Shown here: positions 28,501 through 62,900 of the stretch, piece after piece
How positions within the stretch are numbered: position 1 is the first letter of the stretch
Layout of the letters: each line of letters starts with the position of its first letter
Assembly (NCBI GenBank): GCA_964019135.1
Contig: OZ025264.1
Span: 3,566,827-3,630,826 of the forward strand
Length of the DNA: 64,000 nucleotides
From: Arenicola marina
Lineage: Eukaryota > Annelida > Polychaeta > Arenicolidae
Reading direction: 5' to 3'
Notes under the pieces: model-generated
The model's input: only the letters and a program-made list of their open reading frames with translations
The model's database searches: none
What the model was told of the DNA's origin: nothing
Made by a program: the position numbers and the translations under genes

Positions 28501-31500
28501 ACCAGTGAGTGACAGACGGTGGCCGTCAGTCGCGGTTCAGATACCAGTGAGTGACAGGCGGTAACCGTCAGTCGCGGTTCAGTTACCAGTGAGAGACAGG
28601 CGGTGACCGTCAGTCGCGGTTCAGATACCAGTGAGTGACAGGCGGTGACCGTCAGTCGCGGTTCAGATACCAGTGAGTGACTGGCGGTGACCGTCAGTCG
28701 CGGTTCAGATACCAGTGAGTGACAGGCGGTGGCCGTCAGTTGCGGTTCAGATACCAGTGAGTGACAGGCGGTGACCGTCAGTCGCGGTTCAGATACCAGT
28801 GAGTGACAGGCGGTGACCGTCAGTCGCGGTTCAGATACCAGTGAGTGACAGGCGGTGGCCGTCAGTCGCGGTTCAGATACCAGTGAGTGACAGACGGTGA
28901 CCGTCAGTCGCGGTTCAGATACCAGTGAGTGACAGGCGGTGACCGTCAGTCGCGGTTCAGATACCAGTGAGTGACAGGCGGTGACCGTCAGCCGCGGTTC
29001 AGATTCCAGTGAGTGACAGGCGGTGGCCGTCAGTCGCGGTTCAGATACCAGTGAGTGACAGGCGGTGACCGTCAGTCGCGGTTCAGATACCAGTGAGTGA
29101 CAGGCGGTGACCGTCAGTCGCGGTTCAGATACCAGTGAGTGACAGACGGTGACCGTCAGTCGCGGTTCAGATACCAGTGAGTGACAGGCGGTGGCCGTCA
29201 GTCGCGGTTCAGATACCAGTGAGTGACAGACGGTGACCGTCAGTCGCGGTTCAGATACCAGTGAGTGACAGGCGGTGGCCGTCAGTCGCGGTTCAGATAC
29301 CAGTGAGTGACAGGCGGTGACCGTCAGCTGCGGTTCAGATACCAGTGAGTGACAGGCGGTGGCCGTCAGTCGCGGTTCAGATACCAGTGAGTGACAGGCG
29401 GTGACCGTCAGTCGCGGTTCAGATACCAGTGAGTGACAGGCGGTGACCATCAGTCGCGGTTCAGATACCAGTGAGTGACAGGCGGTGACCGTCAGTCGCG
29501 GTTCAGATACCAGTGAGTGACAGACGGTGACCGTCAGTCGCGGTTCAGATACCAGTGAGTGACAGACGGTGACCGTCAGTCGCGGTTCAGATACCAGTTA
29601 GTGACAAGCGGTGACCGTCAGTCGCGGTTCAGATACCAGTGAGTGACAGGCGGTGACCGTCAGTCGCGGTTCAGATACCAGTGAGTGACAGGCGGTGGCC
29701 GTCAGTCGCGGTTCAGATACCAGTGAGTGACAGACGGTGAACGTCAGTCGCGGTTCAGATACCAGTGAGTGACAGGCGGTGACCGTCAGTCGCGGTTCAG
29801 ATTCCAGTGAGTGACAGGCGGTGGCCGTCAGTCGCGGTTCAGATACCAGTGAGTGACAGGCGGTGACCGTCAGTCGCGGTTCAGATACCAGTGAGTGACA
29901 GGCGGTGACCATCAGTCGCGGTTCAGATACCAGTGAGTGACAGGCGGTGACCGTCAGTCGCGGTTCAGATACCAGTGAGTGACAGACGGTGACCGTCAGT
30001 CGCGGTTCAGATACCAGTGAGTGACAGACGGTGACCGTCAGTCGCGGTTCAGATACCAGTGAGTGACAGGCGGTGACCGTCAGTCGCGGTTCAGATACCA
30101 GTGAGTGACAGGCGGTGGCCGTCAGTCGCGGTTCAGATACCAGTGAGTGACAGGCGGTGGCCGTCAGTCGCGGTTCAGATACCAGTGAGTGACAGACGGT
30201 GACCCGTGCAAGGTACAATGAGTAGACGGTATTTATGTCACGCCAGCTCCAGCCTATGGTTGATCTCTTATGAATCCATAGTCTACACGTTAATAAGTAT
30301 ATCTCTTTGACTGTCGAAAAGGTACTTTGAGTACGAATAAAAATATATGATATAATAGAGATATATGATATAATAAAGATATATATTATAATAAGATATA
30401 TAATGTAATAAAGATATATAATATATTGCAGATATATAATATAATACAGATATATAATATAATAAAGATATATAATATCTTATTTAAACAGGGCATCAAA
30501 TGGCTGAAGGACGTGGGTGGCCCATGCGACAATATGTGTCAGCATGGGTCTCCTAACCTGATAATTATATGAATGTATTTATTTATGATCGAATTATTAT
30601 TTGGGTTAAATAAACGCTATTGAATCTTGAATCTATATAGAAGTGGAAGCTTAACCTATACACTCACCATGTGTCCGGCGTTGTTAACCCAGTAGTACTT
30701 GAACCCTTGGTTGACCTTGTAATAGAGGTCAGTCTGAGCGGTGTCTGGATCAGTGGTCCAGAACCTCTCGGCAGCATTGAAGTTTGCCAATCCGGGCCAC
30801 TTCAGCTTCTGGACATACCGCATGGCGCCTGGAGAACAGAACGTCATACATATCTCGTCATTGTGACACATATTATAGAGCCTGGCGCCTGGAGGAGAGG
30901 GCGTCATACATATCTCGTCATTGTGACACATCATATAGAGCATGGCGCCTGGAGGACAGCTTATCATACATATCTCGTCATTGTGACACATCATATAGAG
31001 CATGGCGCCTGGAGGACAGCTTATCATACATATCTCGTCATTGTGACACATCATATAGAGCATGGCGCCTGGAGGACAGCTTATCATACATATCTCGTCA
31101 TTGTGACACAGAATATAGAGCATAGCGCCTGGAGGACAGAGCCTCATACATATCTCCTCTTTGTGACAAAATATAAAGCATGGAAGCTGAAAGATAGTGC
31201 GTTCTACATTAGTGTGTGAAGTATTAAAAATGCTCACACCACATCGCTTATGTTACTAACGTCCACTGTGACGTCATGATCGCGCTCACATTATTTGTTG
31301 TCCTTAAAGTCATGAAGGTTCTCACATGGAATCAGGTGCCATAAAAACACGTTATCAAAAAACAAGTTACAACAATTCTCAAATTACATCAGTTGTCAAA
31401 ACACAAACATTGCATCCGTCGTCATCCTCCCCAGATGTTATGTCAAGCGTTGTATCTTGTTCTGAGAAACGGCGTACTGCTTGATAAATAACGTAATGTA

Positions 31501-34500
31501 ACACATCTGTAGATGGTGGCGTGTCAGTCGTTGTCAACAGCCTCGCCATATAGTTTTGTCAGCAGCATTACCCATGTTGAGACAGATTAGATCCAGTTGA
31601 CCCTCGTAGATCACCAGGTTCAGGTTGGTGTTGTTCAAAATATCATCCACTGTAAGCATAAAGTAAGCAATAAAACCATGAAGAACAATTCGCTTTCGGT
31701 ATCATTATGTACAAGAAATGACTTGCACGAGGTATGCATGTGTTACGTCTCATAAATAGAAATAGGCTACTTCGTCTGATATGACAAAATGTTTAAGGAA
31801 TTCACATGACGCTAACTATCTTCCATTCAGGTAGTTAGGCCTCACGAGTTACTCATCAGCTCATTGGAGCGCTGTTTTCATGAAGTAGTTGAATAAATAT
31901 ACTTACAAACATCCAAAACTGGTTTCATGAAGTGTTTTAATTAATCCTGAATTGGTTTCATGAAGTATTGTTTTACTGTATGTTAATATATTTCTAACAT
32001 GCATCATGCGATTCGTGATGCCTAATGCAACATTTGTTTACTGGAAGCTGAGCCAGAATTCATGAAGCATTCTGTTAACATTCCACTTACTGATAATGAA
32101 AACAGTTAAACTCTAACCCTAACCTTAAACTTAGCCCAGAACTTAACCCTAGTTCTAACCCTAGCCCTCGGGTACTTACTGACGTCTAAAACGGGCTTCA
32201 TAAAGTCGCCTTCCAATACGTTAAACACGGCACCTCCCTGCGCTGAAAGGCATAAACAACTTCAAGTAAAACACGACCACAATTAATTCCGTTTTTATTT
32301 ACAGAACTGTAAAATTAAGGCACTCGACATAACTTCGCTGCCGCTGATTCATGGACAGTACGACCGCGACAGTTAGACTTGTTATGATCATAACGGGTAT
32401 GTGACCCGTTATGATCATAACGGGTATGTGACCCGTTATGATCTAATGATAAAAGCCTTACGCGCTGTTACAAGGTTGGTTGTTGTTTATTCAGGACGCT
32501 TTAACCCCTTTGGTCATATCGCGTCAATGCGAGAAAGAAGGGAGACTGGAGCGATATCCCCGGGGTAACCCTCCACTCTTTGCGAAGAAGGACACGGGAT
32601 CTTTATCCTGTGGCCAGGAAGACACAGCGGGGCGAGAGCCACCGACTCACGTGCCTGCGCTGCTATAGGTGTGGCACTTCCGGCGACTAGTAAGATTATC
32701 CGGTTATAGCGTTGCTTGGAAGACGTTTAAAAACGCGTTTATCAAACCAAATCACTTCAATTGTTAACATATACTCGTATAGACACCGAATTCAAGATGC
32801 TGGGGCAAATGAATATTTGGCGCCATGCGTTTTTCTATTTATATGATAATACTACACTTTTGAAATGTATGCAACCAAAGTTGACAAAAATACACACGCA
32901 TGTATGGACGGGAAGTAATATTCGCTAAGCTTACGCATGTATGGCTTATATCACCCGTTATGTTACATGCCTATCCTCGGATAATATCTGTATGAAATGA
33001 TCAAACAATCATTAATTCTTCAGTTATACAGTTTACAATCAAGTATTTCAATGTGAAAAGTACACTTGTTTATATTTGTATTATTGTATAATAATAATGT
33101 CAATAATGATAATAATAATATTAATAGCAAAAATAAGAATGATAATAATAAAACCTTCCTTTAATTAGAGTTTTGAGCTGTGTTAAATTATTAAATAACA
33201 CTTACATCCAAAGACGACATTACTCGGAATTATGCCGAGCTTATCCCTGATTGGTCCGTTCATCAAATCGGTCAGCGGATCTTGCGCAAACGGAGCCAGA
33301 TTAATGTTGTAAGTGGTGGCTGCCAAAGAAGAAACGAAAGGTTAATGTTGTAAGCGGTGATTGTCAAGGAAAGAACGTCAAGATAATTTTGTAAGCGGTG
33401 ATTGCCAAGGAAAGAACGTCAAGATAATTTTGTAAGCGGTGATTGCCAAGGAAAGAACGTTAAGATAATGTTGTAAGCGGTGGTTGTCCAGGAAGAAACG
33501 ACAAGTTAATGTTGTAAGCGGTGCCTGTTAAGGAAGAAACGACAGGTTAATGTCGTCAGCGGTGATTGTCAAGGAAGGAACGACAACCTAATGTTGTAAG
33601 TGGTGGCTGCCAAGGAAGAAACGAAACGTTAATGTTGTGAGCGGCGGCTGTCAAGAAAGGAAAAACAAGTTAATATTGTAAGCGGTGGTTGCCAAGGAAA
33701 GAAGGTCAAGATAATGTGGTAAGCGGTGGTTGCCAAGGAAAGAAGGTCAAGATAATGTGGTAAGCGGTGATTGCCAAGGAAAGAAGGTCAAGATAATGTG
33801 GTCAGCGGTGGTTGTCAATTAAGGAACGACAAGTTAATGTTGTAAGCGGTGGCTGTTAAGGCAGAAAAGACAAGCAGTGTGGAGGAGCAATGTCTGTGGA
33901 AGAAACCAGAATGTATGTGACCCAGGGATGTAGTTTGGACTGATACAAGCCGTAAACTCTCATAAAATGTACAGTGATGTATTACAGCAATTGTGAAGGA
34001 ACATTTGGGGCTGTATTTATGTAGTCGTTTAATATCTTAATACCGTGCCGTCTGGTTTTACACATATATACATCGACTTACGGTCCAAGGGGAATGCCTT
34101 GGCGCCAGTCGGCGCGTCCCTGCTGCCTGGCGTCACGTACTTCAGGATGTTGTAGAAGTCCACATAGTAGGTCCACTGCCAGACCTTGTTCTCCAGTAAC
34201 TTCCACTGCTGAGTGGCTAAGTTCCACTGACCGTTCAGAATGGACTGTGATATCAACAGACTCTGGTCCTTGACGTCTGTGTACCCGTTCTCGTCCAGAT
34301 TGCCCTGTGGAGACCCGATCCATGTCATTGGTACAATTAAACTGAGGCTTAGGACAACAATCGGCGGTGTCAGTGTCTGGAACGCCTCGGGATGAGGTTC
34401 AGGATTGGGTGCCGTATGTGCTAAGGTTTATTTCACATAACGTCGGTCTAATGGTTTCGTAATTGGCGCCATTTTTATGTCTTAACCACATGCACAGGTA

Positions 34501-37500
34501 CCAGAACCATTATAATTATTCTTACGACTTAACGACATACACAAGCTTTGGAATACATGAATCAAAAGTACATTAATGAAAAGTACATGAATGTCAAGTA
34601 CAGCCATGAAATGTACACAGATGGAAACTACAGGAATAAAAAAGTATATGGCATTAAATGAAATGTTGAATATAGCATAATTAATTGTGGCCTCTATTAG
34701 ATCTACCCGTTATTATTTTTATTTATTTTTTTTATTTTTTTTTTTTTATAATTATTTATTTCCAAAAATAGCAGTTTCGTGTCACATTACATAAAATACA
34801 AGGATATAATGTCATTTTCATACATCTGATCATCAAACACAAGAAAAATACAATACAAGAAAGATACCCTACAAAAAGATCCAATACTAGAAAAGTACAA
34901 TACAAATACCCGTTATTATTAGCTATGTTCTCTGGGTCTACGTTCTGCCAACGCTGGTAACAACAATGGTTGCAGCAATATAATATCAAAAGTAGATATC
35001 GTGTAATAATACACAAAATTATTGTTGTAATCAGTGGGTTATGGGTCTGGAACTCACCATGGTGTAGAGAAGCGGCGCCCACTCCAGACAGATGTCCTCA
35101 GCTGACAGCCACGCGTTGCCATTGGCAACCCCTTGCAAATTACACGTCACGGTACCAAGGTCGATTTCCTACGGAGTACCACAAGGGTAATAACAACTTT
35201 GCTTCATTTTATTGTGAAAGTACAAAGAGACGTATGTTTAAACATGAATACTTTCATCTGCTATGCTTTGAAACTTGTTTATTTACAGGTTGCTTTGGCT
35301 CGCCCTATTGGGGGCCTCCCTGGTGTAGTGGTTAGCGCACTAGACCGCAGATCAATAGGTCCTGGGTTCGAATCCGGGCTCGGGCACCTAATCTGGGGCA
35401 TGTTTCATTCCTTCATCCTTCATCGTCCCGGGAGGTTCCTTGGCCCAATTTAGCCTGTATGTGCACAAAAGTGGCCTAAAACACCAACATTCCATTCCTG
35501 GCTCGCCCTCTTGGTTGCATTGACAAAACGATCATTTCCTCGATCAACGTCCTTGTACGGACAGAAGTTTGCTCTTTTGTCCCTATAAAACATTTCGTCG
35601 TCGAAAGGACCTTCTCTTCTTACAAAAGTACATTTCGTCCACTATAGATTTTATTTCTTTCACAGAACCAACTTTTGCATTTGCATTAAATTGATAGAGG
35701 CAGACTCGTTGCTAATGCTAAGATAGCGCCGTCGCCGTGCCGGTCTAGCGGTAGAGTACCACAGACCGTTTGATTTTTCAACTCTTTAATTGTCGCTCTA
35801 CAGTAGGTAATAAGTACACCGGAAGTACTATAGTTAGTAGTAATTGACTGTGTTAGTGGGTAATGATAGATGCCCGGCCGCTTTATAAAGGACGGCAGTC
35901 AGGTCAGTTTTATAAATTACACACATTAGTACGTGATCAATGATAACAAACCTAGGCTAGTGGATACTGTGATCTGTAGTCATCAGGTAATTAAAAATCT
36001 AATGTCAGGCGCCGACTTGTTTTAGTGAGAGATAGAATGGAAGTCAAAGTAATATTGCCTTATCTTGTCAATATGAGGTTGTAGAGTGTTTCAATTTCAT
36101 TACCTGCTTTTCACAGGGTAAATTACGGAGTAAAGGTTGATGAAGGTCGTCCCAGTCGTCACTTTTCTTCTGCTCCCCCATAAACATCCTTAGACATTGG
36201 TGCGTTACCCTGGATGCGTACACTGGATGTGTACACTTGGTGTGTACACTTGGTGTGTACACAGGGTGTGTACACTTAGTGTGTACACTGGGTGTTTCCT
36301 CTAAGTGTCTACACTAGGTGTTTACACTAGGTGTTGACACTATTGTTTACATTAGATGTCGACACTAGGTGTTTACATTAGATGTATGCACTAGGTGTAT
36401 ATGCTAGGTGTTTACACTAGGTGTTTACACTAGTAGTTTAGACTAGGTGTTTACACTAGGTGTTTACACTAGGTGTATATGATAGGTGTTTACACTATGT
36501 GTATATGCTAGATGTTTACACTAGGTGTATATGCTAGGTGGTTACACTAGGTGTATGTGCTAGGTGTATTCACTAGGTGTATATGCTAGGTGTGTACACT
36601 GGGTGTTTACACTAGATGTATGTGCTAGGTGTTTACACTAGGTGTGTGTGCTAGGTGTTTACACTAGGTGCATATGCTAGGTGTATACACTAGGTGTATA
36701 CACTAGGTTATACACTAGGTGTATATGCTAGGTGTTTACACTAGGTTATGTGCTAGGTGTTTACACTAGGTGTATGTGCTAGGTGTATACACTAGGTGTA
36801 TACACTAGGTGTATACACTAGGTGTTTACTCTAGGTGTATACACTAGGTGGTTACACTAGCGTTCCATTGGCTGTATGCTCCAGGCGTGTAACGTTGGGT
36901 ATGTAAATTGAATTCGTAAACGCATTACATTGTGTGTTAACATTAAAATTCAGCTAAGATAAGAATTAGCGTCTTACCCTCTGCAGTTCTCGGCCGAACT
37001 CAGTTCCCATTTTCCCGCCGTAAGATTCGCCAAAAATGTACAACGGAATTGTCTGTAAAAATGATTGAAAGGCGAAGAAATGCACTCACAGGGAAGTCAA
37101 TGATTAAATCAGTAAATTATAGGTGACGTAAATGAGATCGTTACTTTAGTGGCAAAGTATTGATGAGCAACTTCCAGGACCTGAAGGGCAACATGTGCAC
37201 CCCAGATAGCACAACGATGTTGGCCCAAAGCCGGCTACAGTTGGCACGGTTGGGAGTGGTATGCCGGCGGTGTACCCACATTGGCCCGCTGGACAAAACT
37301 ACATTGGCTGAATGATCTTTGCCGGCATGTTGGCCCATCAATGGTTCAATGCTGTGAGCAATTTTATTTCACTGCGCATTGCTCCATCTGGCCAGTAAGT
37401 TAGGAAACAACGACCGTCCCCCTCTGTGGCAGTTTGAGAACAATAATGAAATCCATTTATGGCGAATTTATGTCACCCTTGAACCATGAGATCGTTTACA

Positions 37501-40500
37501 CACTAATGCGTCCATAGTAAACAAACATCGTGATGGCAGCATGTCACGTGACGTCCTCTCACCTGGAACTCCGGGTAGCTGGCGAGGAAGGACTTGATCA
37601 TTGTGACTAGGTCGGCGGCGATCTCGGCGTTTGTCGTGGTGTAGGCTGCCGAGTTGTCCACATAGCTGTAGCCGGTACCCACGGGGTTGTCGATAAACAA
37701 CACAGAGGCGGCACCCACCTGGAGAGGGAGGGAGGGAGGTGAGGGGAGGGGAGTTAGTTGATGAACAACACAGAGGCGGCACCCACCTGGAGACGGAGGG
37801 AGGGAGGGGAGGGGAGTCAGTCGATGAACAGCACAGAGGCGGCACCCACCTCGAGAGGGAGAGAGGGGAGGGTAGTCAGTCGATGAACAGCACAGAGGCG
37901 GCACCCACCTGGAGACGGAGGGAGGGGAGGGGAGGGGAGGGGAGGGGAGTCAGTCGATGAACAGCACAGAGGCGGCACGCACCTGGAGAGGGGGGGGGGG
38001 AGGGAGGGGAGGGGAGTTATCTTATGGTTAATTATCTTAGTCGGCACCTATAGCTAGTCAGGTGATAAGTACATGGCAATTTTAGTTCACCGCCGGGTTC
38101 AATTTGATTACAGATTTATTTCGACGTTTTAAGGATTAAACTGTATGCTTAGCCAGTCTACTTCGAGACCCAGCATTTGACTTAGGGTCTATCCAAATTA
38201 GAAATATAGGTCAGAGCAGGACCTGACCTAATTAGGAAAAAAACGGTTATTTGGGCATCAAGCGTGTGTTTGCGGTTGTGCGTCTAAGTCGCTATAAATA
38301 TAATTCACTTTTCACATTGTTATATTTTCATATTACAGCCAAAATATCTCAAATGAGATATTTATAGGATCATATACTCCATTTGCTTCAACTTGATATC
38401 ACATGCTATGTTCTAGATACAGCATGTATGTTCCTCTCCTCGAATTTGTAAAGACGTACTTTCAGAAAGTCAGTCCGGAACTATAGCATTTGAGATGAAG
38501 GCACATCGCATGGCACGCGTCTGTAACCTGAGGCAAAGTGCGTCACGTGGAGACAAATTCTCACCCAAGTCCAGTTCCTGGGGTTCAGGTTGAGATCCAG
38601 GGGTCCGATGAGCTCGAAGTTACCGTACCCCGTGGAGGAGGAGCCAGGGCCGCCCTGAAACGTCATGTTAATAGTATGAGCTCCAAGTTACCGTACCCCG
38701 TGGAGGAGGAGCCAGGGCCGCCCTGAAACATGATGATAACAGTATGAGCTCCGAGTTACCATACCCTGTTACATGAAGGTAATCAATAGTATGGGTTACA
38801 TCCAAAACCACTACTCTCATAGCATGACAGTCGTCTTCATGTCACACTCGGTTGTGGAAGGACGCTTAGAAAGGGTTTATTTTTAAGCTTTAATGGAAGG
38901 AATAACATTGTATCAACCCCGGCTCTCGTAATGTCCCTGATTATTCATCATTATTATGCAACATTGAAACCTTCGTGTCATAGTAAATATGACATTGCCA
39001 TTCCCAATCCATTCAGTAAAACACCAACCACCGAAGCGCGGATTAGGCTGTGTCTCAAAGCACCTGGAGCCAGATGATCCAGGGTCTGTTGAGGTAGCCA
39101 TCGGCGTGGTAGGTCTTGTAGAGCCACCAGAAGGTGTGGGCGTCCGGGCGGATGTCCACGTACCCCCAGACCTCCGAGCCGTCCGCCGTCCCGTTGTCCC
39201 GCAAAGTCGGCACAAAGTCTGGCAGTCACGTTACGGCATGAAGCAAAGTTCAAAGAACGTATTCGATTAGACATTCTAGAATGCTCAATCGATTGATCCA
39301 TGTCCGATATTAATAGCGAGCGCAAGCGAGCTCTTAAGGTAACATGCATGCATATTCAAAGTCCATTTCAAGCATAGGCTTTCATTTCGCGTAACAACCC
39401 CCATGAGACATTTTCGGATTCGGAGTAAATATCAGATGTACATAAATATATTCAAGCAAAGAGAGGTCGAAGCCTATTATGTCATGTCTTTAATAATTAA
39501 ATCAGCTGCCCCACAAAACTAACGAATAAATTATTCTATGTTAACACTGGATGTATACTTCAAATTAAAGTTAATTTATAAGCGACGGGCTAAATGTCTG
39601 TTGTCAAGCAGAACGCGCTTGGTGACCGCCCATCGGCTGTTGTCATAGTGAGTAGTTGTGACGTCAAAATGTTATAAACATGACGTCACAATGGGAGTTT
39701 CTAAACAACCTAATGATATGACAAGCACGTGCATGGCATACGTCATCACGCCAAAGATATTCTTTATGGCAAGCCGAAGCGAGATTACTTTTAATATTAA
39801 TCTAGATGTATCCCTTCGGAATATCTGACTTATTAAATATACGCTCGCATTTTTTAGGTAGCACTATCCATATTATTTGTTTGTATCATTGGTTTAGATA
39901 TGAATGACCACAGTGATATTGCCAAAAGGCAATATTTTCGGAACTAAAGACCTGAAGAGGTTCGTGTATGGACCTCTCGGAAGCATTCGATTCTTGTCTT
40001 GTCTTCCACACATTATTAATTACCAAGATAACGCTTTTGGCATCAGTAAACCATCATGTTCGCTAGTTGCGAGCTATCTTACGAACCGCAAAAAGAGGGT
40101 AAAACTAGGACATAATCGGCGCGAGTGGCTTTCTCTCGGAAAAGGAGCACACCAGGATCTTGATTTCGGCCCATCTCTCTTTAATATTTTTACGTATGAC
40201 CTGTATCCACCTCACCCGAAACCGATAAGTATAACTATGCTGATGATAACACTGCAGCGGCTCAAGGCAAGGAGTTTAACAAATTTAAGTTAACACTAGA
40301 GAATATATTACCGGAAATAACAACGTGGTTGACCGATAGTTACATGAAGACCAACCCAAGTATATACCAAGTAATCGTGTTTGAGAGGAGAAACGAAACA
40401 GGTGATGATAGATCTTTTGCGGTTTCTAGAAAAAAACTGGCAGCGGAACAGGAAGTAACATTACTAGGTATTCAACTGGATTCCAGATTACATTTCGGCA

Positions 40501-43024
40501 ACCACATTATCAAGTTTATGCAAAAAAATGCCTGCAAAAATGTATGAGCTAGGGTATCTAAATTAATGAATGTTGATAGCAAACTTACTTTATTTCATTC
40601 CTTCATCCATTCACATTCTAATTATTGTCCCGTTGTGTGACATGTTTGTGATATGAAAAACATGCGTAATGTTGAAAGATTAAGATTGATACAGGCGCGT
40701 GCATTTTAATGATTTTAGATCAGAATACGCAGATTTGAGGAAGAGAGCGGGTAGACTATTGCGATATGTTGAACGATCGAGCGGCATAGCATTAGAAGTT
40801 ACAAGAGTATCAACAAGATTGGGCCCAGCTAGTTACCTTCAAGATATGTATATTTAAAAGAAAGCAATTACGTTTTGAAAACCAACTCTAACACATGTAT
40901 GCCGCGCGTTAAGACAACAGATTATGGCCAAAAGTCAGTGAAGTATCAAGGCAGCAAGCTATGGAATATGCTCAACAAGGAAATAAGGTTAGCCAAATCT
41001 GCTAACGAATTCAAAACAATGCTGACAACCTCGGATGTTTTCATGTGTCACTGTAATTCGTGCACATTGTGCAACATAGCTAATGGGTATAACGTTTAAA
41101 TAGATGATAGAATGGTTGTTATATTGTCATTATCATAATTATGTATATTTATCTCACCAGCTCATGTCATTTTATCATTGTCCGTCAAGAGCACTTGTTC
41201 TAATGTTTACTGTTGACTTTTACATACCGACGTTAAATAAAACTTTATCTTATCTCATCTTATGTTATGTAAGCGTGTTGATGTCAGATTGTTTTTTTAA
41301 TATAGGCCTAGATAATATAATAATAAAGTACACGCAAGTCATAAACTGTTGTATAAGTCGTCAGCATGCTTCTATCTATGTTTAATAATGCTTAATATTG
41401 TTTTCTTTACGGAAAACCATGACAGGAATCTGATTCGTTTACTTTCCGAGACCGAGTGTTTCACAATAGCTCACGTATGACTCAAGACTACTATTTATGA
41501 CAATAATGCATTTTGTGCGTTCTAAGATAGGCGGACCGGCTTCAGTCAGCTATGTTATTGTTTTCGGAAGCGAGATATGCAATGTACATGTTGAAAGGAC
41601 TAACATTCAAGCTACGGGGAACAGGTGAGGCTCACCGTAGTTTACGGTAGTACTACGTGGGCAGACTCATAATTCACTTCCCGAGACCGTATTTACGGCT
41701 TAATTATACTTGAAGCACCATGACAGGAATCTCTTTCTTCATTTTCCGAGATCGTCTGTATGCTTTATTAAACCTTGTTTTACGGAGAACCAAGAAAGAA
41801 AGTTATGGCCTTGGAGTACTCTTCATTTAATTTCGTCAACTGGCAGCTATCGAAAAATATGTCCAGACAGTTAATTTTGATTTATTGTGTCACTAACTAT
41901 GATCAAATAGATCGTAAGTGGATTCATCGCCAATACAACAGACCACGAGTTTATTATTTCAAGCAAAACAATTATCTGCTCACTGCTTTTCAAAACAAAA
42001 AATCATAGTTGGTATAAAACAAAAGGCCTCAGATTATTACGTACCATGCTGGGCAGTGCATCCATATGCTTTGTTGCTAACCCTTTCCTCCAATCCCGCG
42101 CGCAACAACACTCTAACATAATAACAATGCGCCATAGAAATGTGACGTCGTATTCCCTATTATATGTGCTCTGATGCGAAATAGACAGATATTTTTAAAT
42201 TGTCATACTTGCCTCCATGACGCCATGCAATCCCCTATGAACTTAATACCCCCCCCCCCTCCCTCCCCTTACCCTCAATTAAACCCCCATGTATTCTCCG
42301 ATTCTCCGATATGTGCTTAATGACATGTGTGCTGTGGAACAGCTCTCTGTTTAGTACTCGATGTAGTGTACTGTATTGACATCTAGATGTATCCCCTTTA
42401 CACTTGTTATATGTTGTTATGTTAATTTGTTATGTTGACTTTCTGAATGATGTGGCGATAAAGACAAATGCAATAAAAAATTATTATGTCCATGCCATTT
42501 TGTAAACAACATTAAATACAGAATCAGCGCAGTATGGTACCTTTGTTCATATTTAATAAAAAAATAAGTGAGTTTTTGTATGCAATAGGGCACCTTGGAT
42601 ATCTATTTAATTCTGTGTCCTGCAAGCAGACCTTGTATCACTGATTAATCTTCGCCGAATACGTCAAACTTCCAATTGAAGATTCAAATACTGTATCAAG
42701 ACACTGTTTGACTATATAACCGAAGATTTATACCAAGTGAGCTTGTCACATATTGTCTCAGTTGTGATACCATTCTTTTATATACAAATTCTGTGAACAC
42801 ATTTTATTCAAAAGACATTAATGTGATCCATAACCTCCGGCATCAAACACCACAGAGGTCATCAACGGGTCTTGCTCAAGCTCTCGGCCTGAGGCGTTTA
42901 TTATGTTTAGGTGTTTATTATGAGACTTGTTGACGTGTCGTTAGCAGGGAATGGCCTCCAGCCTACCTTGTGCGCTGCTGCACGCGCCCAGCGCCAGTAT
43001 TACCACCAACACGTACCACTCCAT
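25552..43024 (-). CDS. SCPEP1: Serine carboxypeptidase, SCPEP1-like, copy A (12 exons)
   Basis: Predicted secreted or lysosomal peptidase of family S10, related to retinoid-inducible serine carboxypeptidase, removing C-terminal residues. Coding exons, in transcript order: 42967–43024, 39064–39218, 38565–38654, 37563–37718, 36978–37052, 35058–35168, 34082–34304, 33206–33319, 32180–32242, 31572–31649, 30668–30828, 25657–25725. They join in frame to 450 residues (human SCPEP1 is about 452), with all introns GT–AG. Residues 1–19 form a signal peptide (MEWYVLVVILALGACSSAQ). Seen motifs: GGPGSSSTGYGN (oxyanion loop), FIDNPVGTGYSY, GESYGGKM with catalytic Ser163, LMNGPIRDKLGIIP, GQLDLI with Asp368, NAGHM with His427; the C-terminus is NVDV. 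It lies 1.8 kb downstream of its paralog B. Exons 3, 4, 8 and 11 are bordered by arrays copying their own splice junctions. Function is by homology; no interruption is seen. Confidence 0.93.
25726..27244. other. Intron 11 of copy A, unique part
   Basis: No exon or repeat recognised apart from short AT-rich stretches. The frame at 26,432–26,647 has six cysteines but no splice context and no family I know. Confidence 0.5.
27243..27297. repeat. Degenerate telomere-like repeats (TTAGGG type)
   Basis: gttagggttagggcc and related ttaggtttaggg/ttaggttagga words over about 55 bp, directly before the 42-bp array. A CCCTAA-oriented counterpart lies at 32,107–32,168. Confidence 0.6.
27345..30203. repeat. 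42-bp tandem array in intron 11 of copy A
   Basis: About 68 copies of a 42-bp unit (gtgaccgtcagtcgcggttc, agataccagtgagtgacagg, cg), very homogeneous. It lies within the intron between exons 11 and 12 of carboxypeptidase copy A. The 42-bp length keeps minus-strand frames open (716 and 206 codons of a 14-residue repeat). I see no similarity to a neighbouring exon junction, unlike the other arrays in this gene. Confidence 0.97.
30345..30480. repeat. AT-rich microsatellite
   Basis: Repeats of gatatataatataataaa-like units of about 20 bp. Confidence 0.85.
30829..31188 (-). repeat. 60-bp exon-11 acceptor array, copy A
   Basis: Six 60-bp units starting at 30,829, 30,889, 30,949, 31,009, 31,069 and 31,129. 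In transcript sense each unit starts with GCGCCATG, the first 8 nt of exon 11, and ends with a pyrimidine-rich acceptor (TGTCCTCCAG). The unit length is divisible by three. A frame continuous with exon 11 is open through all six units, with the repeating peptide CHNDEICMISCPPGAMLYMM. Each decoy acceptor would therefore extend exon 11 by 20 residues in frame. Confidence 0.93.
31899..32090 (-). repeat. Degenerate exon-9 donor-edge copies, copy A
   Basis: Diverged copies of the exon 9/intron 9 junction. 31,899–31,933 matches the donor plus about 30 nt of exon end (cttacaaacatccaaaactg, then gtttcatgaagt). Weaker fragments lie near 31,945–31,970 and 32,040–32,090. The related array in copy B is much cleaner. 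Confidence 0.55.
32107..32168. repeat. CCCTAA-like degenerate repeats
   Basis: ctaaccctaacc, ttaaccctag and ctaaccctagccc words, in the opposite orientation to the TTAGGG-like stretch at 27,243. Confidence 0.55.
32381..32442. repeat. Tandem palindrome repeat
   Basis: Two and a half copies of a 28-bp unit centred on gttatgatcataac. At 32,404–32,425 there is a perfect 22-bp palindrome. Confidence 0.85.
32472..32670 (-). mobile_element. tRNA-derived SINE, family 1, truncated copy
   Basis: Contains the conserved tail (tggtcatatcgcgtcaatg) and middle (cgggatctttatcctg) of the SINE at 8,121–8,379. It stops at about the B-box region; the A box is missing. Confidence 0.8.
33320..33870 (-). repeat. 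~42-bp exon-8 acceptor array, copy A
   Basis: About 13 copies averaging 41–42 bp. In transcript sense each reproduces the exon 8 acceptor region and its first ~19 nt (CCACCACTTACAACATTAA). The acceptor AG is kept only in a minority (copies near 33,523, 33,606, 33,648 and 33,852). In the others a C-to-T or nearby change destroys it. Confidence 0.88.
35296..35509 (+). mobile_element. tRNA-derived SINE, family 2, with TSD
   Basis: Body 35,307–35,498 between 11-bp direct repeats TGGCTCGCCCT (35,296–35,306 and 35,499–35,509). The head has an A box (TGGTGTAGTGGTTAGCGC) and a B box (GGTTCGAATCC). The tail ends caacattccattcc without poly(A). It is inserted in intron 5 of carboxypeptidase copy A, antisense to the gene. 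Confidence 0.9.
36195..36865. repeat. ~13-bp minisatellite in intron 5 of copy A
   Basis: About 50 imperfect copies of ctaggtgtttaca / ctaggtgtatatg, starting with a gtgtacacttggt variant near 36,215. Confidence 0.93.
37190..37345. repeat. TTGGCCCA-rich short element, intron 4 of copy A
   Basis: Repeated gttggccca / cattggcccg words spaced 20–70 bp apart. This pattern resembles short non-autonomous elements seen in several animal genomes (recollection). The boundaries are not defined. Confidence 0.35.
37719..38030 (-). repeat. Exon-4 acceptor array, copy A (59–74 bp units)
   Basis: Four extra copies (junctions at about 37,787, 37,850, 37,909 and 37,983) of the exon 4 acceptor and first ~32 exon nt, which encode VGAASVLFID. 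Between them lie purine-rich ggaggggagg spacers of variable length. On the transcript these spacers are long C/T tracts feeding each decoy acceptor. Confidence 0.9.
38655..38776 (-). repeat. 68-bp exon-3 acceptor duplication, copy A
   Basis: One full 68-bp unit (38,655–38,722) and a decayed second (38,723–~38,776). Each carries the exon 3 acceptor plus about 45 nt of exon 3 including the GGPGSSSTGYGN codons. It has the same unit as the larger array beside exon 3 of copy B. Confidence 0.88.
39314..39877. repeat. Dispersed ~565-bp repeat, copy 2
   Basis: Colinear with 24,393–24,960. It lies in intron 1 of copy A directly upstream of the LINE fragment. Confidence 0.8.
39900..41268 (+). mobile_element. 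CR1-like non-LTR retrotransposon fragment (LINE), 5'-truncated
   Basis: Plus-strand relic, antisense in intron 1 of copy A. The frame from 39,904 gives reverse-transcriptase sequence (LVASYLTNRKKRVKLG, GPSLFNIFTYDLY). A frameshift near 40,205–40,225 puts the catalytic YADDN motif (codons from 40,230) in the next frame, which continues to 40,547 with ITTWLTDSYMKTNPSI and LLGIQLDSRLHF. The C-terminal part at 40,875–41,099 has LWNMLNKEIRLAKSANEFK and a CHCNSCTLC cysteine end typical of CR1/L2-type ORF2. A short ttatctc-type tail follows near 41,245. Frameshift and internal stops make it dead. Confidence 0.88.
41270..42966. other. Intron 1 of copy A, remainder
   Basis: AT-rich, with two related ~60-bp stretches (ccatgacaggaatct… near 41,418 and 41,719) and a C run at 42,250. 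No coding signal. Confidence 0.45.
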
Positions 43025-43645: not shown

Positions 43646-43649
43646 CTGG

Positions 43650-50700: not shown

Positions 50701-52642
50701 ATGACATTTATTACTTCGACTATATTAAAAAAAACTATACGACTGCTTCAGAACATTGATATAGAAATAATTGCACTCACCCATGTCCAGTTCCTAGGGT
50801 TCAGGTCGAGATCCAGAGGTCCGATGAGCTCGAAGTTACCGTAACCCGTGGAGGAGGAGCCAGGGCCGCCCTGAAACATGATGGTAATAGTATGAGCCCC
50901 AAGTTACCGTACCCCGTGGAGGAGGAGCCAGGGCCGCCCTGAAACATGATGGTAATAGTATGAGCTCCAAGTTACCGTACCCCGTGGAGGAGGAGCCAGG
51001 GCCGCCCTGAAACATGATGGTTATAGTATGAGCTCCAAGTTACCGTACCCCGTGGAGGAGGAGCCAGGGCCGCCCTGAAACATGATGGTAATAGTATGAG
51101 CTCCAAGTTACCGTACCCCGTGGAGGAGGAGCCAGGGCCGCCCTGAAACATGATGGTAATAGTATGAGCTCCAAGTTACCGTACCCCGTGGAGGAGGAGC
51201 CACGGCCGCCCTGAAACATGATGGTCATAGTATGAGCTCCAAGTTATGCCCCCCCCCCACCTCCACTCCACATCACACTAAAGTAGTAAAGTTAAGTAGT
51301 AAAGTTTGCCCTCGTAGGAATATTTAAAATATGAAAAACAAAAAACGATCTAATTAAATAATAACACATCATTGATGTCCTACTGCGGTCTGCAAATCGC
51401 ACATACTGTATCGAAAAGGAAATACCGCCATAATCCGAAAGGGCCCCAGGGCCTACTCCGATCTTCCGACAGAGGGCGTTACGCTTACGCCATAGTCTCT
51501 CTGCCTCACGTCAAATTTAACCATCAGAAATTGTCCTTCATACGCGAAAATTGAAATGAATCTAATCAAAGATAACTTCGCAATTTTGTCATCAAATACA
51601 CCATTGTTTAGCACTTATCGTGCCATTGGTACCGTTCCTGACGAATTCATTCGAGTTTGATTAACTAGTTTGATGTTACTATATTTTCGAGTTCAAACTT
51701 TGACCCCGAGTTATTTTGAAATATTCTTCCACTTAGTTCTTCCATTGTGATCATTCGACAACGGAATGTCTATATTTTTCAAATTTTGCACCGAAAATAA
51801 AATATTTAACTTATAAAATCCTCTAAAACCATTCGTGACCCCAACACCGTTGAGGTCAACCGTGAGGTGGGCGATTACGTGGAGGAGAGATGATGTGAGG
51901 AACGAGGTTCCTTTGCTGGCAGAGTGGACCTCCGCATGACAATGAGCCCACCTGGAGCCAGATGATCCAGGGTCTGTTGAGGTAGCCGTCGGCGTGGTAG
52001 GTCTTGTAGAGCCACCAGAATGTGTGGGCGTCCGGGCGGATGTCCACGTACCCCCAGACCTCGGAGCCGTCCGCCGTCCCGCTGTCCCTCACAGTCGGCA
52101 CAAAGTCTGGCGTCAAAGTCAGGGAAAGCTTGAATCTCGATCATAATGGCTTTGTATATCACAAATAAATCCTCAGAGGTATATGCAACGCGATAACTTA
52201 ATTGGGTGCAGCACCACTGACTATACAACTGCCAAATAATAATCATAATACCTATATTTAATATGCACGATGTGACTATTTTACCAATGTCATCATAGAT
52301 CATACAAAATACATGTAACACATGTACTTAGATTATTACAGTAAATTAAACATTCTGTCTAGACATACAATTATAGCATAATTCTAGCTAGAGTGAAGAA
52401 GAATAGCTCTGGTGTATGTGGATGCATCAGAAGCATCCATGCTCTCGTTCGGTACCTATTATTATAATGTAATAACGAACTCGATGATTTCTGGTTATTA
52501 AAATTTAACTATATTTTATTTCTTAAGTGTAGAAGTTTTACTATGTGCAGTGAATTATGTTGACCTGTAATCAACAGGGAAACCAACCTTCGGCGCCGTA
52601 GGCACCTGCCACACACAACACCGCTAAGAGAGACCACAACAT
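44791..52642 (-). CDS. SCPEP1: Serine carboxypeptidase, SCPEP1-like, copy B (12 exons)
   Basis: Paralog of copy A with the same 12-exon structure and intron phases. Coding exons in transcript order: 52588–52642, 51952–52106, 50781–50870, 50131–50286, 49487–49561, 49030–49140, 47715–47952, 46739–46852, 46250–46312, 45803–45880, 45219–45379, 44831–44899. They total 454 residues. Residues 1–17 form a signal peptide (MLWSLLAVLCVAGAYGA). S10 motifs: GGPGSSSTGYGN, FIDNPVGTGFSY, GESYGGKM (Ser162), LMNGPIREKLGIIP, GQLDLI (Asp372), NAGHM (His431). Exon 7 is five codons longer than in copy A; its donor is GTCAGT, the others are GTRAGN-like or GTACGA, GTGAAT and GTTGGT. Exon 8 ends in a G run (TGGGGG|G-type), fixed by the phase with exon 9. 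A recent-to-moderate tandem duplication is likely. Peptidase role is by homology. Confidence 0.93.
45380..45739 (-). repeat. 60-bp exon-11 acceptor array, copy B
   Basis: Six 60-bp units (from 45,380, 45,440, 45,500, 45,560, 45,620, 45,680), orthologous to the array in copy A: acceptor plus GCGCCATG. The first two units are open in frame with exon 11. Units 3, 5 and 6 carry an A-to-T change on the plus strand (gtcattcat) that creates an in-frame TGA, so only two in-frame extensions are possible here. Confidence 0.93.
45941..46249 (-). repeat. 49-bp exon-9 donor array, copy B
   Basis: Six extra copies (junctions at 46,201, 46,152, 46,103, 46,053, 46,004 and 45,951) of the last ~20 nt of exon 9 (codons KPV.DV) followed by the donor GTAAGTA. 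Five keep an intact GT and near-consensus donor. The outermost copy has lost it (GACGTCACTAAG). The real exon 9 end is at 46,250. Confidence 0.93.
46320..46738. other. Intron 8 of copy B
   Basis: AT-rich, no exon or repeat recognised. Confidence 0.5.
46860..47714. other. Intron 7 of copy B
   Basis: Contains scattered aaaaagtaggaaaa words at 47,155–47,230 and 47,495–47,580, and a ~60-bp two-copy repeat with tctctgaacacattaat near 47,600–47,680. No coding signal. Confidence 0.5.
48280..48475. repeat. Short cgacatttgtcg repeat
   Basis: Irregular repeats of acatttgtcg(c/t)a, about 18–25 bp apart, containing the small palindrome cgacatttgtcg. Confidence 0.75.
48477..48839 (-). repeat. 24-bp array in intron 6 of copy B, possibly donor-derived
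   Basis: About 15 copies of ggtcaccattgtaaagagac plus cagt. In transcript sense the unit reads TCTCTTTACAATGGTGA and encodes GLFTMVT. The end of exon 6 reads TCTCTACACCATG|GTGA and encodes LLYTM|V. This suggests derivation from that junction, although the array starts 190 bp beyond it. All frames are open because 24 is a multiple of three. Confidence 0.9.
49782..49857. repeat. Nested palindromes cggtgtacaccg
   Basis: Five overlapping copies of ccggtgtacaccggtcta-type sequence, each self-complementary, in intron 4 of copy B. Confidence 0.85.
50443..50793 (-). repeat. 175-bp tandem duplication spanning the exon-3 donor, copy B
   Basis: Two near-identical 175-bp units. The unit nearest exon 3 ends in the true junction (exon 3 starts at 50,781 on the plus strand). 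The other carries the same donor at 50,605/50,606 preceded, in transcript sense, by the last 13 nt of exon 3. It is a second, donor-side duplication at an exon whose acceptor side is also amplified. Confidence 0.9.
50871..51246 (-). repeat. 68-bp exon-3 acceptor array, copy B
   Basis: Five full 68-bp units (from 50,871, 50,939, 51,007, 51,075, 51,143) and a partial sixth from 51,211. Each holds TTTCAG plus about 45 nt of exon 3 (GGPGSSSTGYGN and LELI in place of FELI). The real acceptor is at 50,870/50,871 and five decoys follow upstream. Unit length is not a multiple of three, so use of most decoys would shift the frame. Confidence 0.95.
51250..51951. other. Intron 2 of copy B, remainder
   Basis: Unique AT-rich sequence with a short C run at 51,250. 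No coding signal. Confidence 0.5.
52107..52587. other. Intron 1 of copy B
   Basis: Unique sequence, no repeats recognised. Confidence 0.5.
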
Positions 52643-53696: not shown

Positions 53697-54180
53697 ATGT
53701 AACGGCGGGGGCCGGTTTGGTCCCCAGCGGGAGTCGAACTCATGATCTCCCGATCTCAAGTCAACCACTCTACCTCTTCGGCTAAAGGGGTGATCCCTCT
53801 AGTCGAGGCTAGTAGGAAGGGTTTGACTCACTGCTACACATTCCCCCCTCTTTCCGAGAGGGCTGTCCTTAGACCGCTGTCCTCAGACCGCTGTCCTCAG
53901 ACCGCTGTCCTCAGACCAGGACTACTCAGTCTCAGAACCGCCGTGGGTTCTACCTGTGTCGTGCTCCATTGTAACGGCGGGGGCCGGTTTGGTCCCCAGC
54001 GGGAGTCGAACTCACGATCTCCCGATCTCAAGTCAACCACTCTACCTCTTCGGCTAAAGGGGTGATCCCTCTAACCGAGGCCAGTAGGAATGGTTTGACT
54101 CACTGCTACACATTCCCCCCTCTTTCCGAGAGGGCTGTCCTCAGACCGCTGTCCTCAGACCAGGACTACTCAGTCGCAGA
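53697..54180 (-). mobile_element. Two tandem tRNA-derived units (SINE family 3)
   Basis: A 272-bp unit starting taacggcgggggccgg occurs at ~53,699 and again at ~53,971 (second copy shorter). On the minus strand each has an A box (TAGCCGAAGAGG), a B box (AGTTCGACTCC) and ends GGGGACCA. The encoded CCA suggests descent from a mature tRNA. The units contain agaccgctgtcctc microsatellite copies (five in the first, two in the second). No target-site duplication is evident around each unit. Confidence 0.72.
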
Positions 54181-56639: not shown

Positions 56640-56765
56640 CATTATCAAGAGAGTGCGCAGTTTTTTTTCGTTCATTATCAAGATAATACTATTTTGTCGT
56701 TCATTATAAAGATAATACTATTTTGTTCATTATCAAGATAATACTATTTTGTCGCTCATTATTTA
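56640..56765. repeat. ~30-bp tandem repeat
   Basis: Four copies of gttcattatcaagataata plus ctattttgtc. Confidence 0.9.
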
Positions 56766-57985: not shown

Positions 57986-57989
57986 CGGT

Positions 57990-58790: not shown

Positions 58791-58804
58791 ATAAATCAGA
58801 ACCA

Positions 58805-58810
58805 TTTATT
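58805..58810 (-). terminator. SELENOF: Polyadenylation signal of SELENOF
   Basis: AATAAA on the minus strand, giving a 3' UTR of about 1.1 kb after the stop at 59,954–59,956. The SECIS candidate lies between. Confidence 0.6.
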
Positions 58811-58988
58811 CAAAATGCAGATGCATTCGACACAGAAAAAAATGTAGATGATATATATGGCAAGGACAAGGATGTTACAATATAACTACAATTTACTTCT
58901 TGTATAAGACATTCATACAATGTTTCCTGTTGTGTCATGCTGTTATTGACTCACACAGGGACAACCTGGGATGTATTCCTCCGCCCGA

Positions 58989-59058
58989 CCGTGTCTCGCT
59001 AAAACATCCGGCTGCGCACACCTTGCGGGTTTGCTGCGCTGCCTTCATACAGAGACGC
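58989..59058 (-). ncRNA. SECIS element candidate in the SELENOF 3' UTR
   Basis: In transcript sense, ATGA (59,045–59,048) begins the quartet. It is followed by a 12-nt 5' stem (AGGCAGCGCAGC), an AAA loop, a mini-stem CC…GG (CCCGCAAGG), and the 3' stem TGCGCAGCC with one A·A mismatch. The 3' quartet is GGAT (59,006–59,009). Below it, CGTCTC pairs with GAGA. The ~12-nt quartet-to-AA distance and the extra mini-stem fit a form 2 eukaryotic SECIS. It would recruit SBP2 and the Sec-specific elongation factor to decode the TGA at 61,308–61,310. Confidence 0.8.
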
Positions 59059-59953: not shown

Positions 59954-62900
59954 CTATTTCCGAAGTCTCTCGGCGAGGAATTCCTCCACAGAGTCCGTGT
60001 TCCATTTCTCGATGCTGAGCTCCTCTGCCACTTCCTTGCGGTCATTCAGCAGCTTCAGCACGGGGTCTGCACCCCGCACGTAGCGCACCGTCAGACCGGG
60101 AAACTGGTTGGGCCGCTCGCTCTTCACGAACGCTGCAAGCAAAAAGGGGTTAATATTGAAGGCCAACAGACCGAAAACTGGTTGGGCCGCCCACTCTTCA
60201 CAAACGCTGCGAGGAAAAGGGGTTAAAGTTGAAGGCCAACAGACCGAAAACTGGTTGGGCCGCTCGCTCTTCACGAATGCTACCACCAAAAAGGGTTAAA
60301 GTTGAAGGCCAACAAACCGGAAATTGGTTCGGCTGCTCGCTATTCATGTATGCTGCAAGTAAAAAGGCTTAAAATTGAGGGCCAACAAACCGGAAACTGG
60401 TTGGGCCGAGTGCTATTCATGTATGCTGCAAGCAAAAAAGCCTTAAAGTTGAGGGCCAACAAACGGAAAACTGGTTGGGCCGCTCGCTATTCATGTGTGC
60501 TGCAAGCAAAAAGGCTTAAAATTGAGGGCCAACAAACCGGAAACTGGTTGGGAAGAGTGCTATTCATGTATGCTGCAAGCAAAAAGGCTTAAAGTTGAGG
60601 GCCAACAAACCGGAAACTGGTTGGGCCGCTCGCTATTCATGAATGCTGCAAGCAAAAAGGCTTAAAGTTGAGGGCCAACAAACCGGAAACTGGTTGGGCC
60701 GAGTGCTATTCATGAATGCTGCAAGCAAAAAGGCTTAAAGTGGAGGGCCAACAAACCGGAAACTGGTTGGGCCGCTCGCTATTCATGTATGCTGCAAGTA
60801 AAAAGGCTTAAAATTGAGGGCCAACAAACCGGAAACTGGTTGGGAAGAGTGCTATTCATGTATGCTGCAAGCAAAAAGGCTTAAAGTTGAGGGCCAACAA
60901 ACCGGAAACTGGTTGGGCCGCTCGCTATTCATGAATGCTGCAAGCAAAAAGGCTTAAAATTGAGGGCCAACAAACCGGAAACGGCTGCTCGCTCTTCACG
61001 AACGCTGCGAGTACGAGTATAACACCGTCAGACCGTAACACATAGATGTAAAAAAGGTCGCTACAGTATAATATTAAATTTATATAGTTTGGTGGTATAA
61101 CCTTTATGTAATAGAATTTCCAAAGCAAAGAAAATACATAAAGATTAGAAATATGATAGCATCACGCACAGTGTGTCTACACAAAGCAATGCAGTTGTAA
61201 CATAATGTCATGCGATACTTAACAAGAATACAACAATGGGTATAATTTGTTCTTGAAGAGCCATAACCCACATACATACCTTGGACCTGCGGGTATTTCC
61301 CCAACTTTCATCCACACACATGAAGCTCAGCAAAGGGATAAAGCTGGAGGAAAGAACAAGTATGTAATTATTTTACTAGCTTCATATCGAACCAGGCATA
61401 AATCACTGAACTTATTTTTCATGCTTGTTAAGTTTCACCCTCAAGAAAGATGCCTAGTCTCATATATTTTCACTGGTAATGTAAATTGTTTTGTTAAAAC
61501 TGCTCTTATTAGTATTTGCAAAATAAAATTGTTTTGTGAGTTAAAGATCACTAGAATAATACTTATAGCTTGATGACACCTAAGGACTTAGTCAAAATCT
61601 TTTAAAAAATTTGTCTCTATATTTTGTTGTTTGTCTACAAATGCTGACCAGTTATCATGCTTACCACTTTGGCTTCATCCTCTGCGCCATCGTCCTGACA
61701 GCATTGCCTACAGGTTGATACCAACGGCGTCAGTTTGAACTGCTCCAGCTCCCTACAGGAGCTGCATATCAGGCTGGGAGAAAACCCCTTTAGTTGGCAT
61801 TCCTCTAAAGACAAGTCTTGACACCAAGCCACAACAGCCTGCAAAAATAGTACAGTACAGTTTTAAATTTTACTTAAAAACTAGGCCCCTAGGGCATGTA
61901 TAGTCCCCAAAGAGCAGGGCCCTAAAATAGCCTCGGGAGACAGAGTGAAGAAGCTTTTGCGAAGTTTTATAAGCTTACCCTAAAATTTAAAAAGCACAGG
62001 CACAGTAAATCAGTGGAGGGGGGAGGGCGGGGGGGGATGGGGGGCCCATAACATTAGTATACGTTGTGCCCTCCGCCCCCCCGGCCGGTGTACACTCATA
62101 ATGGCCAAATGGTCAAACGGCTGAAGGATTTAAGGGGGAGGAAGGGGGTGGGGGTGTAGCGGGCCAGCAGATCGGAGTCTGCCGTGCCTCGACGATTGGG
62201 TGTCAGCCTCGGCTTCCTGAGGGAATATCACTTTTTGCACATTTTTGGGGGAATCCCTTAGAGCCCCATAATGAGCATGGATAATGCAGATTTTTGCACA
62301 CAGCCAATTTATCGCGGGGAGCACCGTAATGAGCATTGACAACGCAGATTTTAATGGTAATGATGGTGTAGAGCATGGATTTTTGTGGATATTCACACAG
62401 CCCAAATTTCATGCACTCTCGTTTATGATTATGAATTCTCATTTAATTTTTGGTTTTCACCCATTTACTGGCGGATATAGAGTTAACTTGTATAGCCAAT
62501 TGAGAACAGCATTATAACAATCCACAACAGAATGCCACATCCTTTGATAACAACTTGTTAAATTCACTGGCTTATCTATTTAGTTTCGACTTGCCTGCCA
62601 TCTGGAACTGGTAGTCCTTTGATAACAACTCCATAGTCACAGTGGCATGTAATTAAATCCTGGCTTCTTCTTTGCCAAAGCTGTCTTTAGCGGTTGTCAC
62701 TGTCTAATTGCCTAAACTAAAGGTTTAAATACAGCAATCCAACCAATTGGTTGATTATGGATATCATAGATAAATTGGGTATAAGAGGAGTTGTTGGTCT
62801 TTGTTAAATCTCTATAAACTTTCGCTGCCTATTCTTCCATACAATCGATCACACCAACCCAGACCCTTGTATACAACTCCACAATAGTCTCGCGGCCACT

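Follow-up and report, generated by a model that had tools for sequence, protein, structure and literature searches.

Does an intronic minisatellite that carries copies of the neighbouring exon–intron junction reflect a process acting at exon edges, or the ordinary turnover of tandem repeats filtered by selection? The locus that raises this question is a stretch of 64,000 nucleotides (nt) from the annelid Arenicola marina (GCA_964019135.1, contig OZ025264.1, positions 3,566,827 to 3,630,826 of the forward strand), hereafter the window, in which two SCPEP1-like paralogues, A and B, and the gene SELENOF carry tandem arrays built of a splice site and the adjoining exonic sequence. An earlier reading of the sequence alone had named eight such arrays and proposed that the phenomenon is widespread. 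When the window is set beside a sample of unrelated genes, about 9-10% of the sampled junctions carry an array of this kind, a mirage in the sense of the amphioxus literature, which corresponds to an enrichment of about two-fold. Exons are denoted by E and their number.

Arrays across the splice junctions of three genes

Tandem Repeats Finder and the gene models together place nine arrays across splice junctions of A, B and SELENOF, two at donors and seven at acceptors, with units of 41, 49, 59 (59-74), 60, 68, 73 and 175 base pairs (bp; Table 1). All eight arrays named by the sequence-only reading are present at the exons it gave and share the orientation of their junctions; the ninth, the 175-bp duplication at the E3 donor of gene B, is added here. 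The copies start at the edge of the exon and are oriented like the true junction, mostly with intact splice sites, and clean junctions recur along the arrays, such as tttcag/GGCGGCCC at the acceptor of exon 3 and GACGTCA/gtaagt at the donor of exon 9 (the slash marks the junction). The B E9 donor array keeps GT in its five distal full copies and is followed by an extra degenerate copy at 45935-45975. The full reading frames of A, B and SELENOF need the exon-adjacent copy of each junction.

A comparison based on exonic sequence only, in which the 45 nt at each exon edge were matched against the exon's own intron with 60 shuffles and the antisense strand as controls, is passed at 8 of the 50 window junctions, where the matches score above all shuffles and antisense and start within 2 nt of the junction. 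The exon matches thus survive careful alignment. One of the eight is a degraded single copy of the A E9 donor edge that the earlier reading had overlooked; it lies about 246 nt into the intron, and its score of 15 exceeds that of the best shuffle (11) and that of the antisense strand (9.5). B has six copies at this junction; the decayed copy in A may be an old, fading array or an ancestral one. Both E11 arrays, with their nine exonic nt, fail this stricter test.

Among the gene-body arrays of the window with a period of at least 20, nine of 14 span a junction, compared to 1.4 expected under uniform placement without weighting for guanine-plus-cytosine (GC) content (P = 5e-7); for independent events only, the count is 7 of 12 against 1.15 (P = 2e-5). 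The window was chosen for its arrays, so these P values are biased and the gene-family sample constitutes the fair test. As expected of a picked window, it is richer in such arrays (9 of 50 junctions) than the sample.

Table 1 Junction-associated arrays and host genes in the window (positions count from the first letter of the window).
Feature	Position	Strand	Unit and copies, or gene structure	Exonic nt per unit	Remarks
A E11 acceptor array	30820..31183	(-)	60 bp x6.1	9	
A E8 acceptor array	33301..33874	(-)	41 bp x14	19	AG in 4/13 distal copies
A E4 acceptor array	37689..38017	(-)	59-74 bp x ~5	30	
A E3 acceptor array	38608..38766	(-)	68 bp x2.3	47	
A E9 donor edge	31897..31935 (approximate)	(-)	degraded single copy		downstream of true donor
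B E11 acceptor array	45371..45733	(-)	60 bp x6.1	9	homologous to A E11 array
B E9 donor array	45976..46269	(-)	49 bp x6	20	
B E3 donor duplication	50443..50794	(-)	175 bp x2	14	absent from the earlier list
B E3 acceptor array	50824..51246	(-)	68 bp x6.2	47	homologous to A E3 array
SELENOF E4 acceptor array	60099..60982	(-)	73 bp x12.1	34	
SCPEP1-like gene A	25657..43024	(-)	12 coding exons, 450 amino acids		open from ATG to stop
Gene A terminal exons	E1 42967-43024; E12 25657-25725	(-)			
SCPEP1-like gene B	44831..52642	(-)	12 coding exons, 454 amino acids		open from ATG to stop
Gene B terminal exons	E1 52588-52642; E12 44831-44899	(-)			
SELENOF	59954..63369	(-)	4 coding exons: 63322-63369, 61665-61838, 61280-61343, 59954-60132		

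Junction-spanning arrays in a sample of gene families

The sample was picked by Pfam hidden Markov models (HMMs) rather than by arrays and consists of three families unrelated to the finding, namely myosin, CCT chaperonin and kinesin. It comprises 137 exons, 231 called junctions, 212,772 bases and 105 minisatellites (period at least 20, score at least 80), and draws on the matches that lie within fetched sequence (45 of 77 for myosin, 41 of 61 for CCT, 51 of 133 for kinesin). Splice sites were placed by a matrix built from the 25 introns of the window. For kinesin, 12 regions with dense matches were chosen by visual inspection before their arrays had been seen; the choice left out at least two fitting regions, one close to C19:22.19 Mb and one close to C1:12.28 Mb, and one kinesin match with several stops was excluded while other matches with stops were retained. 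Segments L043 and L061, which hold three long single-exon matches that we take to be of the HSP60 type, were dropped as being without usable exons. An array is counted as spanning when it extends for 10 nt or more to both sides of a junction, and the null models place one unit per array. Counts of exon-edge copies, array ends, GC preference and splice-site integrity refer to a set of 229 junctions.

Of the 105 minisatellites, 21 span a junction, 13 at donors and 8 at acceptors, and they are distributed over 13 of approximately 36 gene clusters (200-kb bins). The corresponding expectation is 7.29 for uniform placement (P = 3.2e-6), 9.60 for GC-weighted placement (P = 2.4e-4; bootstrap ratio 1.32-3.06 for this whole-sample null) and 12.24 for GC-weighted placement within the same segment (P = 0.0038). 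An excess appears in all twelve variants of the test, formed by three overlap cut-offs and four nulls, with ratios of 1.52-3.35 and P from 0.017 to 2.9e-7, and all three families contribute to it (myosin 6 of 54, CCT 6 of 24, kinesin 9 of 27). The claim of a widespread phenomenon therefore holds in the genome sample, at 21 of 231 junctions, as does the claim that more arrays lie across exon edges than would be the case under random placement. The strength of the effect is another matter: an excess is present outside the window, but at approximately 1.5-3.4-fold it is far below that of the window and partly due to GC content. GC content and array density account for roughly half of the junction-spanning arrays.

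A test independent of the repeat finder gives the same picture. At a score of at least 15, the adjacent intron holds a copy of the exon edge in sense orientation at 23 of 229 junctions and in antisense orientation at none of the 229; of the 23 sense copies, 22 extend to within 3 nt of the junction. The units of the sample's junction arrays measure 29-423 bp and are repeated up to about 47 times. Long arrays of this kind are seen in a myosin gene at C2:59155064-59156614 (203 bp x7.6) and in a kinesin gene at C14:6740240-6742354 (69 bp x29.9).

Array ends and base composition at exon edges

The ends of arrays that face an exon are unevenly distributed. Their density is 0.17-0.55 per kb deep in introns and 1.1-1.3 per kb from 60 nt outside the exon to its edge; inside the exon it peaks at 2.0 per kb between 10 and 30 nt, amounts to 1.4 between 30 and 60 nt and falls to 0.21 between 60 and 100 nt, with only ends in the near half of the exon being counted. 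The drop beyond 60 nt is what the purging of exon-disrupting duplications would give, and chance and filtering leave unexplained the increase seen to both sides of the edge. Arrays favour GC-rich intronic sequence, the mean GC content being 0.50 for intronic arrays, 0.435 for introns and 0.563 for exons. Part of the rise at the edge is explained by composition, because arrays are GC-richer than introns.

Splice-like sites with a score of at least 7 were also seen in the 81 purely intronic arrays, with 14 sense versus 7 antisense donors and 12 versus 4 acceptors. This sense bias is a weak hint (P = 0.44 for donors and 0.047 for acceptors, on means), and such sites may represent unannotated exons or detached mirages.

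Splice sites within the arrays

Most distal copies are potential decoys. GT or AG is retained in 217 of 237, a figure that overstates integrity, as distal copies were chosen at no less than 62% likeness to the junction and are non-independent within an array; in some arrays, moreover, there are more junction copies than units called by the repeat finder, nested sub-repeats having been counted too. The splice dinucleotide is intact in all 24 distal copies of one myosin donor array and in 35 of 38 distal copies of a CCT donor array. Loss of AG is seen in 9 of 13 distal copies of the A E8 array, in 4 of 4 copies of the kinesin array at C14:38582733, where the remaining junction context is unchanged, in 10 of 45 copies at C14:21551927 and in the one copy at C17:1217664. 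Loss of the site is rarer among donor than among acceptor copies, a comparison between non-independent copies from which we draw no claim. In the scanning model of acceptor choice, upstream acceptors are met first. If scanning holds, the loss of upstream AG would fit selection against wrong splicing; the arrays concerned are too few for a claim.

Shared and independent arrays of the SCPEP1-like paralogues

The units differ between most arrays of the window, which the sequence-only reading had taken as a sign of independent events. This applies to most of them, but not to the 60-bp E11 and the 68-bp E3 arrays, which are homologous at the same junctions of A and B. One alignment of the two genes covers exon 11 and its entire 60-bp array (525 bp, 90.7%), and another covers exon 3 and its 68-bp array (207 bp, 93.7%); no further intron match beyond the exon flanks was found between A and B at an E value of 1e-3. 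At E11, the exon-adjacent units of the two genes differ at 2 of 60 sites, the inner units are homogenised per gene, and the far-edge unit of A shows 11-14 differences. Within one gene, some distal E11 units are identical or one difference apart, which is the pattern that concerted turnover would produce. At E3, distal copies in both genes read TTGGAG and both exons read TTCGAG. The alignments indicate that the E11 array is either older than the duplication that gave rise to A and B or was moved by conversion, and the same probably holds for the E3 array. At least one array has shared ancestry between the paralogues. Exons 4 and 8 carry an array in A and none in B. With the homologous pairs counted once, about seven births, rather than eight or nine, would account for the arrays of the window.

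Within the matching stretch (30663-31185 in A, 45214-45738 in B), exon 11 of the two paralogues is 98% identical, other exons being 61-96% identical. The similarity breaks off abruptly at the donor on one side and where the array ends on the other, resembling a conversion tract that comprises exon and array only.

Origin of the arrays

We consider it probable that ordinary tandem duplication and expansion, filtered by selection and moderately biased towards exon edges, gave rise to these mirage minisatellites. They would begin as short tandem duplications that have an exonic breakpoint, mostly 10-60 nt from the edge, and an intronic one and that would therefore copy a complete splice junction; the array would subsequently grow by slippage or unequal exchange. 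Purifying selection would then filter the products. In the copy that adjoins the complete exon the true junction would be retained, and all other copies would be intronic and leave the coding sequence intact, so that the array would be tolerated, presumably also in the messenger RNA; duplications within exons would be removed. With minisatellites making up about 20% of the sampled gene sequence, many junction-spanning arrays would arise by chance, and the residual, roughly two-fold excess at donors and acceptors would reflect extra duplication or longer survival near edges. Part of this excess is attributable to the preference of arrays for GC-rich sequence. The bias itself may be mutational, or it may stem from longer survival beside a conserved anchor.

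Several observations weigh against this interpretation. The exon edges of the sample are HMM matches combined with a splice matrix of 25 introns rather than RNA, 43 of the 274 edges gave no splice-site call and were dropped, and an in-frame stop occurs in 14 of the first 85 matches, which consequently overrun an edge. The weakest variant of the placement test (GC-weighted, same segment, overlap of at least 6 nt) yields only a 1.52-fold excess with P = 0.017. Furthermore, the exon-adjacent E3 units of A and B differ at four sites and are no closer than distal pairs, unlike at E11; concerted evolution that excludes the edge units fits E11, and its pattern is not clearly visible at E3.

Pure chance in a minisatellite-saturated genome, where edges are straddled predictably and nothing special happens there, would be the simplest alternative. 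Arrays do fill 19.7% of the sampled gene regions, and 7-12 of the 21 spanning arrays are expected, at the 10-nt cut-off, from uniform or GC-weighted placement by itself. The observed count nevertheless lies above all 12 nulls and array ends are densest less than 60 nt from exon edges, and we judge chance alone to be unlikely. We give still less credence to a process targeted to splice sites, in which R-loops or spliceosome pausing would duplicate GT/AG boundaries. Such targeting would account for the clustering of array ends at exon edges and for the copies that start at the junction (22 of 23), although the latter follows from any duplication across a junction and is no proof alone. The GT/AG boundary as a specific target, proposed in the sequence-only reading, sits poorly with arrays at both donors and acceptors (13 and 8) and with a further clustering of ends over the first 60 nt of flanking intron, so that the dinucleotide need not be the target. 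The R-loop mechanism suggested there finds no counterpart in strand asymmetry: the 24 exon-overlapping arrays lack a significant positive sense G skew (mean 0.036, P = 0.13 against the intron background).

Selection for function, by which extra splice sites would be kept to modulate splicing, ranks lower again and appears quite improbable. It would explain why splice dinucleotides are intact more often than the 0.83 expected from identity elsewhere, a comparison inflated by the non-independence and preselection of the copies described above, and why, of all intronic stretches, those of the E3 and E11 arrays alone align between A and B well beyond the exon flanks. Against it stand the acceptor arrays that have lost AG, the absence of arrays from exons 4 and 8 of B, and periods that are mostly not multiples of three (only 4 of 21 in the sample). 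Falsely duplicated sequence in the assembly is hardly credible as a source, with copies in most arrays being several substitutions apart and the pattern recurring on many chromosomes.

Relation to known mirages

The amphioxus 'mirages' to which the sequence-only reading refers do exist in print. They are described at Adh3 (Canestro et al. 2002, as cited in PMC3087553) and the globins BflGb6 and BflGb9 (PMC3087553) as well as at PGBD5 and TnC (PMC3902484), where they lie at 5' and 3' boundaries, carry splice signals in many copies and place exonic parts within introns (PMC3087553, PMC3902484). The annelid arrays resemble them in that their units span the exon–intron boundary (the nine arrays of the window and 21 of 105 in the sample), in that the additional copies are intronic, next to the true junction and in its orientation, as the sense and antisense counts illustrate, in that both boundaries are affected, and in that most, though not all, copies keep AG or GT (A E8 and the kinesin array at C14:38582733 being exceptions). 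They differ in their host, a protostome, whereas the reported cases that we found are all cephalochordate; moreover, the amphioxus reports proceed gene by gene, while the annelid arrays were measured over 231 junctions in about 36 gene clusters and are known from DNA alone.

Mirages have been proposed as a route to new introns (PMC3087553), and the duplication in tandem of AG/GT proto-splice sites has been described as a source of introns (Rogers; Gao and Lynch; as cited in PMC3087553). There too, a tandem duplication carries the splice signals, but the annelid copies sit in existing introns. Another annelid gene, the earthworm metallothionein wMT-2, has exon 4 duplicates absent from the transcript and large minisatellites in intron 1 (PMC12783039). 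It shares with our genes the extra exon copies and the large intronic minisatellites, and it differs in having two exon duplicates, one of them inverted, and no junction-spanning array in the sections of that report available. Internal tandem repeats in human segmental duplications, whose minisatellite expansion alters gene structure, concern recent human paralogues (PMC2812944). In the open-licence literature we found no mirage outside amphioxus and no genome-scale count. Mirages themselves are not new; the annelid adds, as far as this literature extends, a new phylum, together with a quantitative test.

Occurrence above chance in an annelid turns mirages from a curiosity into a feature measurable across genomes. 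Arrays of intact donor decoys beside one real donor are natural experiments in splice-site choice, and they pose the questions of why decoys are ignored and why some acceptor arrays lose AG. We advance tentatively, as conceivable though not our expectation, that minisatellites intrinsically arise or find refuge at exon edges and that, in at least two distant animal lineages, amphioxus and this annelid, a general seeding process places a row of near-perfect decoy splice sites at about one in ten junctions. If this were so, the arrays would be a lasting source from which introns and exons could arise, and would put to a natural test the way in which the spliceosome selects its sites.

Host genes and other features of the window

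Both SCPEP1-like proteins match PF00450 (Peptidase_S10) in Pfam, gene A with an E value of 1.3e-76. The rebuilt models of A, B and SELENOF have GT-AG boundaries in 25 of 25 introns and open frames; in SELENOF, an in-frame UGA in exon 3 is read as selenocysteine. The identity of SELENOF is supported because a SECIS_1 match from Rfam lies downstream, at 58993-59056 on the (-) strand (37 bits, cut-off 35); the name, presumably correct, follows the sequence-only reading and sequence likeness rather than a protein search. The window belongs to an 867-Mb genome whose mitochondrial contig encodes a COX1 with, as its best match, that of the phyllodocid annelid Pilargis wolfi (91% identity); the named matches among the first 49 of 120 are all annelid, which rejects the amphioxus origin suggested by the analogy in the sequence-only reading. 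The best-ranked protein match of SCPEP1-B is 52% identical, identity being at most 54% among the 120 matches listed, where a Branchiostoma protein reaches 42%. Other S10 genes in the genome are distant members with a different exon structure and are uninformative on whether the E3 and E11 arrays recur.

The last exon of gene A lies to the left of the interval given in the earlier reading, and its last intron of 4942 nt contains a 42-bp x68 array that is wholly intronic. This array (27345-30204) is one of several very large arrays, together with those at 1-4008 (31 bp x129), 16537-19726 (52 bp x61) and 20949-23068 (24 bp x88), all of which sit away from modelled exon edges. By eye, a reverse-transcriptase-like remnant with a YADD-like motif is visible at 39950-41100 in intron 1 of gene A, and a stretch resembling a transfer RNA (tRNA) and thus a short interspersed element, with a TGGTGTAGTGGTTAGCGC box, at 35310-35390 in intron 5; ARAGORN called no tRNA at the latter. 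Also by eye, a segment of about 275 bases is present in two similar copies at 53690-54170, and the adjoining sequence appears retroelement-derived; the GCTGTCCTCAGACC repeats within the segment are reported by Tandem Repeats Finder. Outside the sample, aminopeptidase M1 has 75 matches in the genome, and at C2:35692000-35766000 we observed 12 tandem M1 matches of identical or nearly identical score, mostly spaced by about 6.1 kb.

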